A stretch of 39,554 bases of DNA from Actinomycetes bacterium (lineage in GTDB: Bacteria > Actinomycetota > Thermoleophilia > Gaiellales > F1-60-MAGs149): the NCBI GenBank assembly GCA_025360225.1, contig JANYCN010000083.1, positions 1-39,554 on the forward strand, read 5' to 3'. Both the position numbers and the translations under genes were made by a program. Below the pieces are notes generated by a model. It saw only the letters and a program-made list of their open reading frames with translations, did no database searches and had not been told where the DNA came from. Below are positions 29,755 to 34,085 of this stretch, in pieces (within the stretch, counting starts at the first letter, position 1; the number at the start of each line of letters is the position of its first letter).

Positions 29755-30387
29755 TCACGGAGCGGGTGAAAATCCAGAGGAGTCGAACCGATCCGTCCAT
29801 GGCGGGTCGGCGATACCGTAACAGAGAGGCCGACGTCCAACGCCCAGGTGCGAGTCGGACACAAACCCGCGTGGGTGAACTACGCTTGTCACTAGTCGAT
29901 TACGGGCGACGTACGTTAGTACTGCGCCGAGAACTCCGACCGAACGGCGCGAATCAACGATCTTGAAGTCGATGTCGATCTCCATAAGTGCATCACCCGA
30001 AGGGACGTACGGCAGTTTGTACACCGACTGCACGTCGGTTGGTGGGAGCCACTGCACCGCCTGTCGCCTCGCCACGTATACCCTCGTAGCGACGGCGTTG
30101 ACCACCCTCAAGGGACGAACGCTCACCAGACGCTGGAGATCCGTACCGCGAGCCGGGAAATACCATGCATTCAGCGTCACAGAGCGACGCATAGGATCAA
30201 AAGGAGCCTGCGCGCAAATGTTCCCGTGCGGATACACGAAAAGCGAGGCGCCACCGCCACGCGCCACAATGTCCGGTGCCCGAAGGCTGACGGCGGCAAT
30301 CAGTGCCCAGACGGCAAGCGCAATCACGGATCCAACGATCAGGCGCCCCCATTTTGTGCCTGCGCACCTACGGCGCGTAAATTGCAT
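29755..30387 (-). CDS. Membrane-anchored protein, overlapping partner of the large secreted protein
   Basis: A 210-residue protein of unknown family. One TM helix near the N-terminus (RLIVGSVIALAVWALIAAVSL) follows a basic stretch (FTRRRCAGTKWG), so the remaining ~170 residues are probably outside the membrane. They are beta-rich with few recognisable motifs (SVTLNAWYFPARGTD, LMEIDIDFKIVDSRR). ATG 30387 has GAGG six bases upstream, inside the preceding gene, and the genes overlap by 20 bp, giving tight coupling. Base composition is less GC-rich than its neighbours (33 of 60 in 29881-29940). It may anchor, transport or neutralise the large protein, but no homology supports any one role. Confidence 0.65.
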   Translation of the reverse strand: MQFTRRRCAGTKWGRLIVGSVIALAVWALIAAVSLRAPDIVARGGGASLFVYPHGNICAQAPFDPMRRSVTLNAWYFPARGTDLQRLVSVRPLRVVNAVATRVYVARRQAVQWLPPTDVQSVYKLPYVPSGDALMEIDIDFKIVDSRRSVGVLGAVLTYVARNRLVTSVVHPRGFVSDSHLGVGRRPLCYGIADPPWTDRFDSSGFSPAP

Positions 30388-33300
30388 CCATGGCCTCAAT
30401 GGCGTTGGGATCGTTTAGCACAAGACAGTACCGCATGTCGTGGCCGCTTACGTTCTTCCAACCCACGCGCCACGTCTTGCTCGCCCCGTTATCGGCCTGA
30501 ATGCCCGCGCCAATACCGATGGTAGCCGTCTTGAACAGCGGCGTAGACGTTAGACTCAGGTCGAGCGAAAACGATTCGGTCGTCTTAGTCGTATTTGTCG
30601 CCCCGTACGTCCACCCTGCAGACGCCACCTGGGACGCGTATGTCGACGCGGTACACCTCAGTCCGCCGTAGTGAAGGCCGTCCATCTGCCCGGAATCCGA
30701 AGTGATGGCGCCGCCGATCCACTTCAGTGTCTGCCAGTACCGAGAATACCGGCAAGCGGCATTGACCCCCACGTATCTCGCTTCTACATAGCGAGCATAC
30801 CACTTGTGATCACCGGCAACTCCCGGAACATGGGCTTCGAACTCCGCATAGTCGGAGACGGCGTGCGATCCCTTGGCCTTGATTACACCCGCTGCATCGA
30901 TACTGAAACTCGTTGTGACGACGTGTTCGGTGCCTGTGGAGAAACCGAACTCCGTGTTGAAGTCAGAGTCAGAACTATATCGCAACTCGGTGATCGGCAT
31001 CCAGGTTTGACGCTCCTGCTTCTTCGTCGCCTTTGGCCGGCAGCTGGGTGGAACCGGAAAATGAACGCCAGGCGCCGGCCCCGGCGGCGCCTGATTGGGG
31101 GCAGCGTCGCCATTTAACGCGGGGCTGAGCTCCACGTCAGGGGCCGGCGCCATCCCTGCCACCTGCCCGCTCTGTACAGCAGTCGCGACCACCTCGACGT
31201 CGACGTTATTTGTTCCGTCGTCGGCCGTAACCATAAGGTTTCCCTGAACCGTGCCGCCTAGCCCCGATCCGCCGACCATGTCGATAACACTTGCGTCGTC
31301 CAGGCGAATCGGTATCGAGTAACGACCGAGACCGTCAGTGACACCGGACCCTGCATACGCGAAAAAAGACGTCCCCGCGGAATCGGACGCATACGGCTCG
31401 TAGCGGATGCTGATCACCGCGCCGGCCAGCGGCAAGCCTAATCGCGTGACGATCCCACCGATGTCTGGCAGAGCGTACGCCGGCGCAACACGTGCGACTG
31501 TGAAGGTCAGCGCGGTCGACGTCGAATGACGAACGGTGTCTGAGCTAATCGCTTCGACCGAATAAGAGCCAGCTGCCGGCACGTCGACCCATGCGTCTGA
31601 CGTGCCTTGGGGTGCTTGTCCATCCGTCGCGCAACTTTCGGGACACGTCACCACCGAACCCTGCGCGGTGGCAACTAATGCGCCGGTACCACTTCGAATG
31701 TTGAATTGGACCATCCCGACCTCCCCCGCGTCACCGTCCCGAAACGCTGCCGAAAGGTGCACACGCGCCGAGGACAGTACGGCTGCCTTTACCGGAGCCG
31801 TGATGATTGGTACGTCGGGTGCGTATGCGTCGACGACAACCGTGAGCGCCGCGGTAGTGCTGGTTGTGCTGATGTTCCCGGCGACGTCGACGCTAGCGAC
31901 GTGGACGTACCACGGCCCCGGGGTGTCCGGGACATTCGTCGCCGTCGCAGTGGTCTGCAGGGTGCCGGTGTTCGCGAACGTGGTGGGGGAGCCGTCGATC
32001 AGGACGCGGTAGCCGCTGACGCCGCCAACGGCGCCGTTGGTCGCGGCGTTGTCGGTCGCGGTCCAGGACGCGCTGATCATGCCGTAGGTAACGGTCGGGG
32101 TGATCACCGGCGCGGACGGCGCGACGCTGTCCACCGTGACGCTGATCGCGTTGGTCGGCGCGGAGTCCACCGGCCATCCGTCATAGCGATGATACCCATC
32201 ATACCCGTAGGCCTGGACGTCGTAGCGACCATCGGCCACCGTCACGGTCGTGGTGCTAGCGCTGCCGGACGGCGTCTGCGTACCGAAGTAGTCCGCTCGG
32301 ACACCGGTCGCGGCCGGCGTCATCGGGAACTTCACCCACCCCGCGGTCGCGTCCGGATCGCTGAACGTCGCCGACAACGCCAGCGCACCGCTTGACGCGG
32401 TCTGCGTCGCCGCGGACGAGCCATTCACGGCGAACCCCGTCGGCACGTTCGGAAGGGTGTCGTAGGGAACCTGCAGCACCGGCGGCGTCGCGGTCGCGCC
32501 GGACGCGAACCGCTTCCACCCGAACGTGTCGAGCTCATCGCCGTACGCCTTCAAGACGATCCCATTGTTCGTCATCCCATGCGTCCAGTTCCACACCAAC
32601 CCGGACAGGTCCTGGCCAGCGCTACCGGTGCTAAGGCTGATCGTGCCCGCCGGACAACTCGAAGAGTAGCCCTTCGCGGTGTTCAGATACGCGTACCGCG
32701 TCAACAGACCTGGCATCGGTGACGTCGTCGACGAGCCCGCCCACGAGATCGAATGGGTCGCGTCGAACACCGGCGCCGCCGCCGCCGCCCACGCCTCAAC
32801 GATCCGCGGCGTACAGCTCCACGCCCACGTCTCAAACAGATCAAGATGCGTCCCCGACAACAACGCGACCGACGGGCTCCCGAGCTGCGACACGTTGAAC
32901 CGCAAGAACGAGCGATCAACGTCCACGCCGTCGTACGTCCCCGTCCGGAACTCCGCCTTGTTCTCGTACACCGCCGTCGAGTACGTTTTCGACGTGTACA
33001 CATCCCAGGTATCGCTCAACGGGAACCACGGATCGATCGTCACCGGGTACGTCAACCGCGGCCGGTCAAAGAACGCGGCGTCCGGCGCCAGCACCAGCGT
33101 CGGCGCATCCGGCGTCCCACCCAGGACGATCGGGACCGTCGCCGAGTCAACGGCAAGCCCAGAATGCGGATCAGTCGCAGCACCCTCGATCGTCGCATAC
33201 CCCGGATCAGACACCACCACGCCCGACCTCGCGTCACGAAGCTCCAGCTGCCCGAGCGCGTTCACGACCGCCGTCAACCCGCGAAGCCCGAGCGGCTGGT

Positions 33301-33916
33301 TCACCACCAACGGCATCGTCGGACGCCGCTTCACGACAAAGAACTGCTCGAACCCCGCCGGCCCGACCCGCACGACAACATCGATCCCCGGCAACGCATC
33401 AACGTACCGCGCCTCATCACCGGACAGGATCGGCGTCGGCAACGACCGAAGCCACCCAAGCGACACCGCATCGACGCCGCCCGAGATCCGCGCGAGAAAC
33501 CCATCCGCACCGCCATCGCTCAGCGTGATCGCCGACGCCGCCTGCACCGGATGCACCCCTCCAGAATCCATCACCAGCGTGGTGTCGACCGGCAACCACC
33601 CGCCCGCACCCATCACATCATGCACCCGCACCGGCGAGGCGGACAACTCCATCACCCGCGACCCATCAGGCTCGACATACACCCCCGAAAACACCGAGGA
33701 CTCCGACCCGACAAGCACCGGCAACCCCGAAGCCGAAGCCAACGCCGCCGCATCCACCCCCGACGACGCAGCCGCGAGACCCTGCGCATACAACGGCTCC
33801 GAACCGGCCGACACCGCCGGCACCGTCAGACCAGCGTCAACCGGCCCAGCTACCGCCGAACCCACACCGACCCCGCCCAGCGCTATCGCCAACGCCGCGG
33901 CAAACGACCACCGCAC
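30368..33916 (-). CDS. Giant secreted multidomain protein (DNRLRE-like, Fn3/Ig-like, novel C-terminal domain)
   Basis: 1182 residues from the in-frame GTG 33916, which has no Shine-Dalgarno. A signal peptide (SFAAALAIALGGVGVGSAVAG) is followed by an N-terminal region like those of actinobacterial Rhs/wall-associated proteins: LRGLTAVVNALGQLELRDA, then LTYPVTIDPWF, then a DNRLRE-like domain with FRTGTYDGVDVDRSFLRFNV. Further on are Ig/Fn3-like units (DSVAPSAPVITPTVTYGMIS; DAYAPDVPIITAPVK). The Pro-rich linker at about residue 960 precedes a ~200-residue C-terminal domain with alternating polar/hydrophobic strands (TESFSLDLSLTSTPLFKTAT). No Rhs repeats are seen. The true start may be ATG 33984, out of frame by one CT unit. 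Its C-terminal third is less GC-rich (36/60 at 30841-30900 against 44/60 at 33721-33780), so the tail may be an acquired module. Confidence 0.75.
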   Translation of the reverse strand: MRWSFAAALAIALGGVGVGSAVAGPVDAGLTVPAVSAGSEPLYAQGLAAASSGVDAAALASASGLPVLVGSESSVFSGVYVEPDGSRVMELSASPVRVHDVMGAGGWLPVDTTLVMDSGGVHPVQAASAITLSDGGADGFLARISGGVDAVSLGWLRSLPTPILSGDEARYVDALPGIDVVVRVGPAGFEQFFVVKRRPTMPLVVNQPLGLRGLTAVVNALGQLELRDARSGVVVSDPGYATIEGAATDPHSGLAVDSATVPIVLGGTPDAPTLVLAPDAAFFDRPRLTYPVTIDPWFPLSDTWDVYTSKTYSTAVYENKAEFRTGTYDGVDVDRSFLRFNVSQLGSPSVALLSGTHLDLFETWAWSCTPRIVEAWAAAAAPVFDATHSISWAGSSTTSPMPGLLTRYAYLNTAKGYSSSCPAGTISLSTGSAGQDLSGLVWNWTHGMTNNGIVLKAYGDELDTFGWKRFASGATATPPVLQVPYDTLPNVPTGFAVNGSSAATQTASSGALALSATFSDPDATAGWVKFPMTPAATGVRADYFGTQTPSGSASTTTVTVADGRYDVQAYGYDGYHRYDGWPVDSAPTNAISVTVDSVAPSAPVITPTVTYGMISASWTATDNAATNGAVGGVSGYRVLIDGSPTTFANTGTLQTTATATNVPDTPGPWYVHVASVDVAGNISTTSTTAALTVVVDAYAPDVPIITAPVKAAVLSSARVHLSAAFRDGDAGEVGMVQFNIRSGTGALVATAQGSVVTCPESCATDGQAPQGTSDAWVDVPAAGSYSVEAISSDTVRHSTSTALTFTVARVAPAYALPDIGGIVTRLGLPLAGAVISIRYEPYASDSAGTSFFAYAGSGVTDGLGRYSIPIRLDDASVIDMVGGSGLGGTVQGNLMVTADDGTNNVDVEVVATAVQSGQVAGMAPAPDVELSPALNGDAAPNQAPPGPAPGVHFPVPPSCRPKATKKQERQTWMPITELRYSSDSDFNTEFGFSTGTEHVVTTSFSIDAAGVIKAKGSHAVSDYAEFEAHVPGVAGDHKWYARYVEARYVGVNAACRYSRYWQTLKWIGGAITSDSGQMDGLHYGGLRCTASTYASQVASAGWTYGATNTTKTTESFSLDLSLTSTPLFKTATIGIGAGIQADNGASKTWRVGWKNVSGHDMRYCLVLNDPNAIEAMDAIYAP

Positions 33917-33933
33917 CCGCCACGAGACCGACC

Positions 33934-33957
33934 GAGAGAGAGAGAGAGAGAGAGAGA
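33934..33957. repeat. (GA)11 / (CT)11 dinucleotide microsatellite
   Basis: About 11 CT units on the coding strand of the giant gene lie between ATG 33984 and GTG 33916. The ATG-to-GTG distance is 68 nt. Loss of one unit (66 nt) or gain of two (72 nt) would join the ATG to the long frame. The tract lies inside the codons that would encode the n-region of the signal peptide. Confidence 0.85.
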
Positions 33958-33971
33958 ACTCGGGGAACGAC

Positions 33972-34046
33972 GGCCATACATCATCCGAACCACTCCAATT
34001 CGACGGCGACGGCGCCCATTATGCACGTTCGGCATACCCAGGTCAA
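33972..34046 (-). promoter_or_regulatory. Promoter, ribosome binding site and ATG for the giant gene
   Basis: On the minus strand TTGACC (34046-34041), 17 bp, and CATAAT (34023-34018) are a near-consensus promoter. Then TTGGAGTGG contains GGAG (33996-33993), 8 nt before ATG-ATG at 33984. The predicted leader is about 25-30 nt. This is a better expression start than GTG 33916, and the -35/-10 pair is closer to consensus than any other in the window. Confidence 0.6.
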
Positions 34047-34056
34047 GACGGCTCAC

Positions 34057-34085
34057 ATGACAGGGACATGACAATGACATGACGC
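34057..34085 (-). promoter_or_regulatory. Three direct repeats, PHO-box-like operator
   Basis: Read on the minus strand: GCGTCAT-GTCA-TTGTCAT-GTCC-CTGTCAT. Each 7-bp unit is followed by 4 bp, giving exact 11-bp spacing. CTGTCAT is the E. coli PHO-box half-site, and this 7+4 geometry is typical of PhoB/OmpR-family winged-helix regulators. The last repeat ends 10 bp upstream of the -35 box of the giant gene. Which regulator binds is unknown; the actinobacterial PhoP consensus differs. Confidence 0.5.

Follow-up and report, generated by a model that had tools for sequence, protein, structure and literature searches.

A (CT)11 tract at the start of a gene for a giant secreted protein in an actinobacterial genome is, we consider it highly probable, a switch for translational phase variation driven by slipped-strand mispairing. 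The gene lies in a window of 39,554 nt (the whole stretch of DNA analysed), which is contig 56 (C56) of a 3.24-Mb draft genome, 97% complete and in 89 contigs. Taken alone, the window is compatible with an assembler miscount of the tract, or with translation from GTG 33916. Once the remainder of the genome is considered, phase variation becomes the best interpretation: paralogues of the gene and two other genomes show the same arrangement, and it is very probable that these actinobacteria turn exported proteins on and off at random, in the manner of Helicobacter.

The elements of the locus are collected in Table 1. An earlier note on this DNA had described the promoter, the GGAG, the paired ATG codons and the repeat, and all were confirmed base by base. 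The tract codes for Ser-Leu repeats whatever the frame, and is followed directly by a single C (33934). The main frame begins CGG TCG GTC TCG TGG CGG, and then reaches GTG 33916. The tract begins 28 nt after the first letter of ATG 33984, and this ATG is in frame with the long ORF when 28 + 2n is divisible by 3, n being the number of CT units. At n = 11, the assembled length, the ATG yields an out-of-frame product of 33 aa; at n = 10 or 13 it reads into the long frame. The arithmetic thus agrees with the earlier view that the 1182-residue frame is off register and would be restored by loss of one CT. So does the N-terminus joined in this way, MMYGRRSPSSLSLSLS-RSVSWRVRWSFAAALAIALGGVGVGSAVA, with the claim of a signal peptide: its n-region is basic, and it contains a hydrophobic core and an AxA site, judged by the simple charge, hydropathy and AxA heuristic used for all signal-peptide calls here. 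GTG 33916 has no properly spaced Shine–Dalgarno sequence, as had been noted, only a directly abutting GGCGG, and a signal peptide starting there would be short and weakly charged by the same heuristic; a start at this codon is disfavoured.

Table 1. Features of the locus in the window (positions are those of the window)
Feature	Position	Strand	Remarks
-35 box, TTGACC	34041..34046	minus	sequence and scan; 17-nt spacer to -10
-10 box, CATAAT	34018..34023	minus	sequence and scan
Shine–Dalgarno-like GGAG	33993..33996	minus	8 nt before ATG 33984
ATG-ATG (33984, 33981)	33979..33984	minus	off register with respect to the long frame at n = 11
(CT)11 tract, proposed switch	33935..33956	minus	reads GA on the plus strand
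GTG 33916, alternative start	33914..33916	minus	3' of the tract, in frame with the long ORF
Giant secreted protein, body, 1182 aa	30368..33916	minus	signal-peptide core WSFAAALAIALGGVGVGSAVA, conserved N-domain, DNRLRE domain (NF033679), C-terminus
214-aa ORF	29755..30399	minus	one likely membrane segment

Three properties of a contingency locus, those that can be read from sequence, are present here. (CT)11 is a tandem repeat whose unit is not a multiple of three, and its length is far above chance (the expectation even for (CT)7 in the window was 0.00 in 100 dinucleotide shuffles). Changes in unit number shift the frame, and the tract sits between a start codon and the body of the ORF, with the caveat of GTG 33916. 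And the tract is kept at the same functional position in diverged homologues. Two further observations concern the surroundings of the gene. The 214-aa ORF, for which no Pfam match was found, overlaps the 3'-end of the giant gene by 32 nt and may be a coupled partner, although its membership is uncertain. Just 5' of the -35 box (34055-34083, minus strand) lie three copies of TGTCAT/ATGACA-like motifs, which also occur upstream of the promoters of three of the paralogues described below (C33, C34 and C88) and are perhaps a site for a shared regulator; the 7-mer TTGTCAT is not enriched across the window.

Pattern searches for CT tracts and G runs in the whole genome place this tract in a small and uniform set. 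There are exactly five (CT)7 sites, on C56 (the window), C45, C33, C88 and C82. All five tracts of this length or longer are sense-strand repeats that separate a start codon from the signal core or body of a large secreted protein, being placed either upstream of the hydrophobic core of the signal peptide or inside it. Each is preceded by a TTGAC[A/C] promoter with a spacer of 17 or 18 nt; a -35/-10 layout similar to that of the window precedes the tracts of five other loci in the genome. The ORFs behind the CT tracts run from 285 to 2443 residues, both ending at contig ends. The chance that five of five such tracts would fall at gene starts is on the order of 1e-7, by rough arithmetic that takes about 5% of positions and strands to lie within the first ~100 nt of a gene and assumes about 3100 genes. 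Runs of G≥9 elsewhere in the genome mostly lack the geometry of a frame switch, and three are at contig ends. One C9 run (L090:1501-1509; G000:C53:15613-15621) separates GGAGAGAGG from the ATG of a further secreted protein (MPRFLATGRRPGAALFAAALAALLWP). The length of this run would alter the spacing of the ribosome-binding site, and this may be one more variable locus.

The conserved N-domain of the window protein occurs in five copies in the genome, the other four being 31-66% identical to the window copy, and all five carry a tract: n = 11 on C56, n = 10 on C45 and on C33, n = 9 on C88, and a G10 run on C34. C34 is the most diverged copy and has no CT tract; its start codon opens MGVRGAAGVLVLSAVVTATAASLTGM, a full signal peptide, which is followed by G10 and then by the body in a different frame. 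The paralogues are not fully independent of one another, and may have inherited one ancestral tract.

Comparison with related genomes, which the earlier note had proposed, brought out a homologue with a tract in another genus, and homologues outside the taxonomic family that have no tract at the coding start. A search of 60 relatives for (CT)8 found two tracts in G003, a genome of the same family and another genus. One, (CT)9, belongs to the homologue of the window gene, where it lies behind TTGACA and an ATG, out of frame; the other, (CT)8, is within MRRVHLLSLSLSLSVAFALSSGAALA of another secreted protein, in frame. A wider search for the N-domain covered 129 genomes from the order and 396 from the phylum. 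All six copies of the domain inside the taxonomic family have a tract no more than 250 nt away, versus none of 39 loci outside the family with a tract at the coding start, some of these loci being cut short upstream. The contrast has a probability of ~1e-6 by hypergeometric arithmetic, in which paralogues are counted though not independent. A scan of genome contigs yielded distant homologues only (Amycolatopsis, Cellulomonas), and these have no tracts either. One of the outside loci (L138:1263-1271; G311:C17) has a C9 run just after TTGACGGCT, in what resembles a promoter spacer, and could vary in phase through promoter spacing.

That such switches are rare in high-GC actinobacteria, as the earlier note held, is borne out for CT tracts in general: of 396 genomes drawn from across the phylum, 17 have CT≥9. 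The claim has to be tempered, however, by a distant second case with five genes. G389, an actinobacterium of another family, has six CT tracts. Five (CT8 to CT19) follow the likely start codon of a secreted protein and precede its signal-peptide core, with N-termini such as MMPVSTVPD-(SL)n-RILGRGFVRRCGGALAALVLAAGVLAALPLERAAA. Among the proteins that can be read far enough, at least two contain choice-of-anchor R domains. As the G389 proteins are unlike the window family, this looks, on their sequences, like convergent use of the tract device. The other CT tracts inspected in the phylum were mostly intergenic, at contig ends or in very long arrays, and were left uncounted. Three cases may be mentioned. 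Two paralogous genes for LuxR-type regulators (G138:C18; L148) each have a CT tract of about 10 units just before the helix-turn-helix region, and are possibly phase-variable regulators. A (CT)19 tract (G055:C239; L074:6008-6046) lies directly 5' of a frame resembling an ABC-transporter permease, where leader spacing could vary. And in an actinobacterial genome of 8.6 Mb (G477:C12; L155), (CT)48 close to the end of a contig and flanked by long CA arrays looks like foreign or misassembled repeat DNA.

Several other explanations of the tracts have to be weighed, and the one that deserves most attention denies that the tract is translated. If translation began at GTG 33916 and its equivalents, the tract would be an untranslated leader, for example one that modulates expression by its length, and there would be no frame switch. 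GTG 33916 and the core that follows it do resemble a short signal peptide; the codon lacks a ribosome-binding site, however, and a better start lies upstream, with GGAG and a frame that stays open through the tract. The paralogues divide on this question. An in-frame start 3' of the tract could, by our heuristic, yield a usable signal peptide in the window gene, C45, C82 and G003:C56, so the argument for the window gene draws in part on its relatives. The caveat applies most seriously to C82, where the ATG after the tract is preceded by AGGAG at a good spacing. For C33, C88, C34 and G003:C30 no convincing signal peptide was found from a start beyond the tract. The strongest single argument comes from C34: because its body has no signal peptide of its own (by the same heuristic), ribosomes appear to be meant to cross the tracts. 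The states in which the loci were assembled do not by themselves decide. C45, C33, G003:C30 and G389:C12 are in frame (C33 from its ATG; a GTG with AGGAGG is out of frame), whereas the out-of-frame loci are the window gene, C88, C34, C82, G003:C56 and four of G389. About 4 of 13 loci in frame agrees with drift of the tracts through three frames, for which one third is expected, but a leader tract predicts the same fraction. Overall we regard the leader explanation as unlikely.

Miscounting by the assembler was named in the earlier note as the main alternative, and it has since become a minor one. In this explanation the tract is real, and the gene is in frame and constitutive. Repeat runs are indeed prone to miscounts, the draft is in 89 contigs, and one unit is enough to change the state of a gene. 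Yet ordinary reads exceed the 18-26 nt of these tracts; three genomes hold several out-of-frame loci whose tracts differ in length, one of them a homopolymer; and the placement of all the CT tracts of the genome at signal peptides is left unexplained. A miscount could alter the ON/OFF state of one gene, but could not create a recurring arrangement, and an in-frame tract of such length would still be a likely site of slippage; we give this explanation very little chance. Scarcely more probable is that the tracts have expanded, neutrally or with slight harm, in N-termini under little constraint, in a cell without loop repair, the OFF genes being on their way to pseudogenes. The n-regions of signal peptides may well tolerate Ser-Leu repeats, and no MutS1 was found. 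But (CT)≥7 occurs nowhere else in the genome, the N-termini of homologues elsewhere in the phylum have no tracts, and the OFF bodies are open for about 900 to 2400 aa with no other lesions, which argues for recent expression. Least probable of all, in our estimation, is that ribosomal or transcriptional slippage provides some protein at any length, so that the tract sets a basal level rather than ON or OFF. Repeats can cause transcriptional or translational slippage, and the G10 paralogue would be prone to it; CT repeats, however, are to our knowledge not classic slippery sites, and unsystematic inspection showed no stimulator.

Translational phase variation, the geometry of which the earlier note had recognized, is upheld by all the (CT)≥7 tracts of the genome, by the five paralogues and by the homologue in another genus, and might operate as follows. 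Transcription would start from the TTGACC/CATAAT promoter, and ribosomes would start at ATG 33984 and cross the CT tract, itself a part of the export signal's n-region. When the number of units equals 1 modulo 3, they would continue into the signal-peptide core and the giant, secreted DNRLRE-domain protein (ON). At other unit numbers, including the assembled n = 11, translation would end after a few dozen codons (OFF). Slippage during replication would add or remove CT units, probably at a raised rate, since repair of small loops is not expected in this organism. The genome encodes NucS; its sole MutS-family gene is MutS2 (TIGR01069, 668 bits, with an Smr domain), and no MutS1 turned up in the draft, which is 97% complete. 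Short indels escape correction by NucS-type mismatch repair (PMC8228993). With NucS present and no MutS1 found, slippage in a 22-nt CT tract would go largely unrepaired, apart from proofreading by the polymerase, and we infer that missing loop repair makes the tract unstable. With six loci in the genome, each cell would hold a random mix of several giant secreted proteins, among them at least one RHS protein with a phospholipase-A2-like C-terminal tip, and the benefit might be varied surface or antagonism proteins under attack or competition.

The proteins that would be switched differ in content. The window protein matches NF033679 (DNRLRE) with 41.2 bits, against a cut-off of 34; it has no Pfam match, and no RHS family, neither repeats nor core, matched it. 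No solved structure matched its C-terminal part, and fold prediction without an alignment gave a mean pLDDT of 32 for the C-terminal 238 residues. C82 matches a PPC domain. C88 is of the RHS type: it has RHS repeats, an Rhs core and a tip similar to prokaryotic phospholipase A2 (29.2 bits, just under the Pfam cut-off of 29.4). On the 3' side of its gene (G000:C88:25000-29206) are a lipoprotein-like ORF and, as an orphan, an RHS C-terminal module of 443 aa whose tip differs; judged from the predicted products, this is the layout of polymorphic toxins, usual for the exchange of RHS tips. In C34 there is a laminin-G-like domain, and the next gene is again of the RHS type; its open frame (2213 aa; L039 from about 8615, continuing in L167) overlaps the 3'-end of C34, so that the frame state of C34, the G10 gene, could affect the RHS gene through polarity. 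The common theme would seem to be giant size and export, and some of the proteins show features of antagonism between bacteria.

The mechanism itself is well known. In Helicobacter pylori oipA, a CT repeat at the 5'-end of the coding sequence, in the signal-peptide region, sets the frame ON or OFF by its number of units (PMC10564699), and sabA varies in phase by a CT repeat at its coding 5'-end (PMC4081817). The likeness lies in the CT dinucleotide repeat, its place at the coding 5'-end and the unit count that sets the frame. OipA and SabA, however, are outer-membrane adhesins of a Gram-negative, host-bound pathogen, unrelated to the proteins described here, and their switching is demonstrated whereas ours is inferred. 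The window protein has no homology to Hop/OipA, with no Pfam match, and the resemblance is one of mechanism only. The opa genes of Neisseria have pentanucleotide repeats in the signal peptide. They too form a multi-locus surface-protein family with a repeat switch in each signal peptide. Opa phase variation is listed in PMC11868660. The unit there is CTCTT rather than CT, and the proteins are unrelated and from another phylum. Closer in taxonomy are the homopolymer tracts of Gardnerella, many of them at surface-protein genes (PMC11287997), of Cutibacterium acnes (PMC4746626) and of Mycobacterium tuberculosis (PMC11898584). They share with our case slipped-strand or homopolymer indels in the same phylum, but concern host-associated organisms and tracts that are often upstream or regulatory, and no multi-locus dinucleotide tracts in signal peptides were found described in these reports. 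The likeness to RHS/YD polymorphic toxins lies in the paralogue C88; the window protein has DNRLRE and no RHS. Word searches of the open-access literature found neither a multi-locus dinucleotide system in an actinobacterium nor a tract-switched RHS gene. With strong comparative support, then, what would be new is not the mechanism but the phylum, the repeat type and the cargo of DNRLRE and RHS proteins.

An association of long simple repeats with dependence on eukaryotic hosts has been described, and mono- and dinucleotide repeats are reported to be suppressed in Actinobacteria (PMC4060949). We lean, by a little, towards a wider conclusion: that apparently free-living actinobacteria (known only from draft genomes, their lifestyle being assumed) possess multi-locus CT phasomes in signal peptides, evolved at least twice, that shuffle giant secreted proteins including RHS toxin-like ones. 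The two origins would be the DNRLRE/RHS family (this genome, G000, and G003) and the choice-of-anchor R family (G389). If this is true, phase variation by simple sequence repeats would also be a strategy of environmental bacteria, and not mainly of host-bound ones. The six-locus set and its distant parallel would bring dinucleotide contingency loci to a phylum for which the reports cited here describe homopolymer cases only, and would tie phase variation to RHS-type secreted proteins. CT tracts within signal peptides would, moreover, offer a cheap and general screen, applicable to existing metagenome reads.
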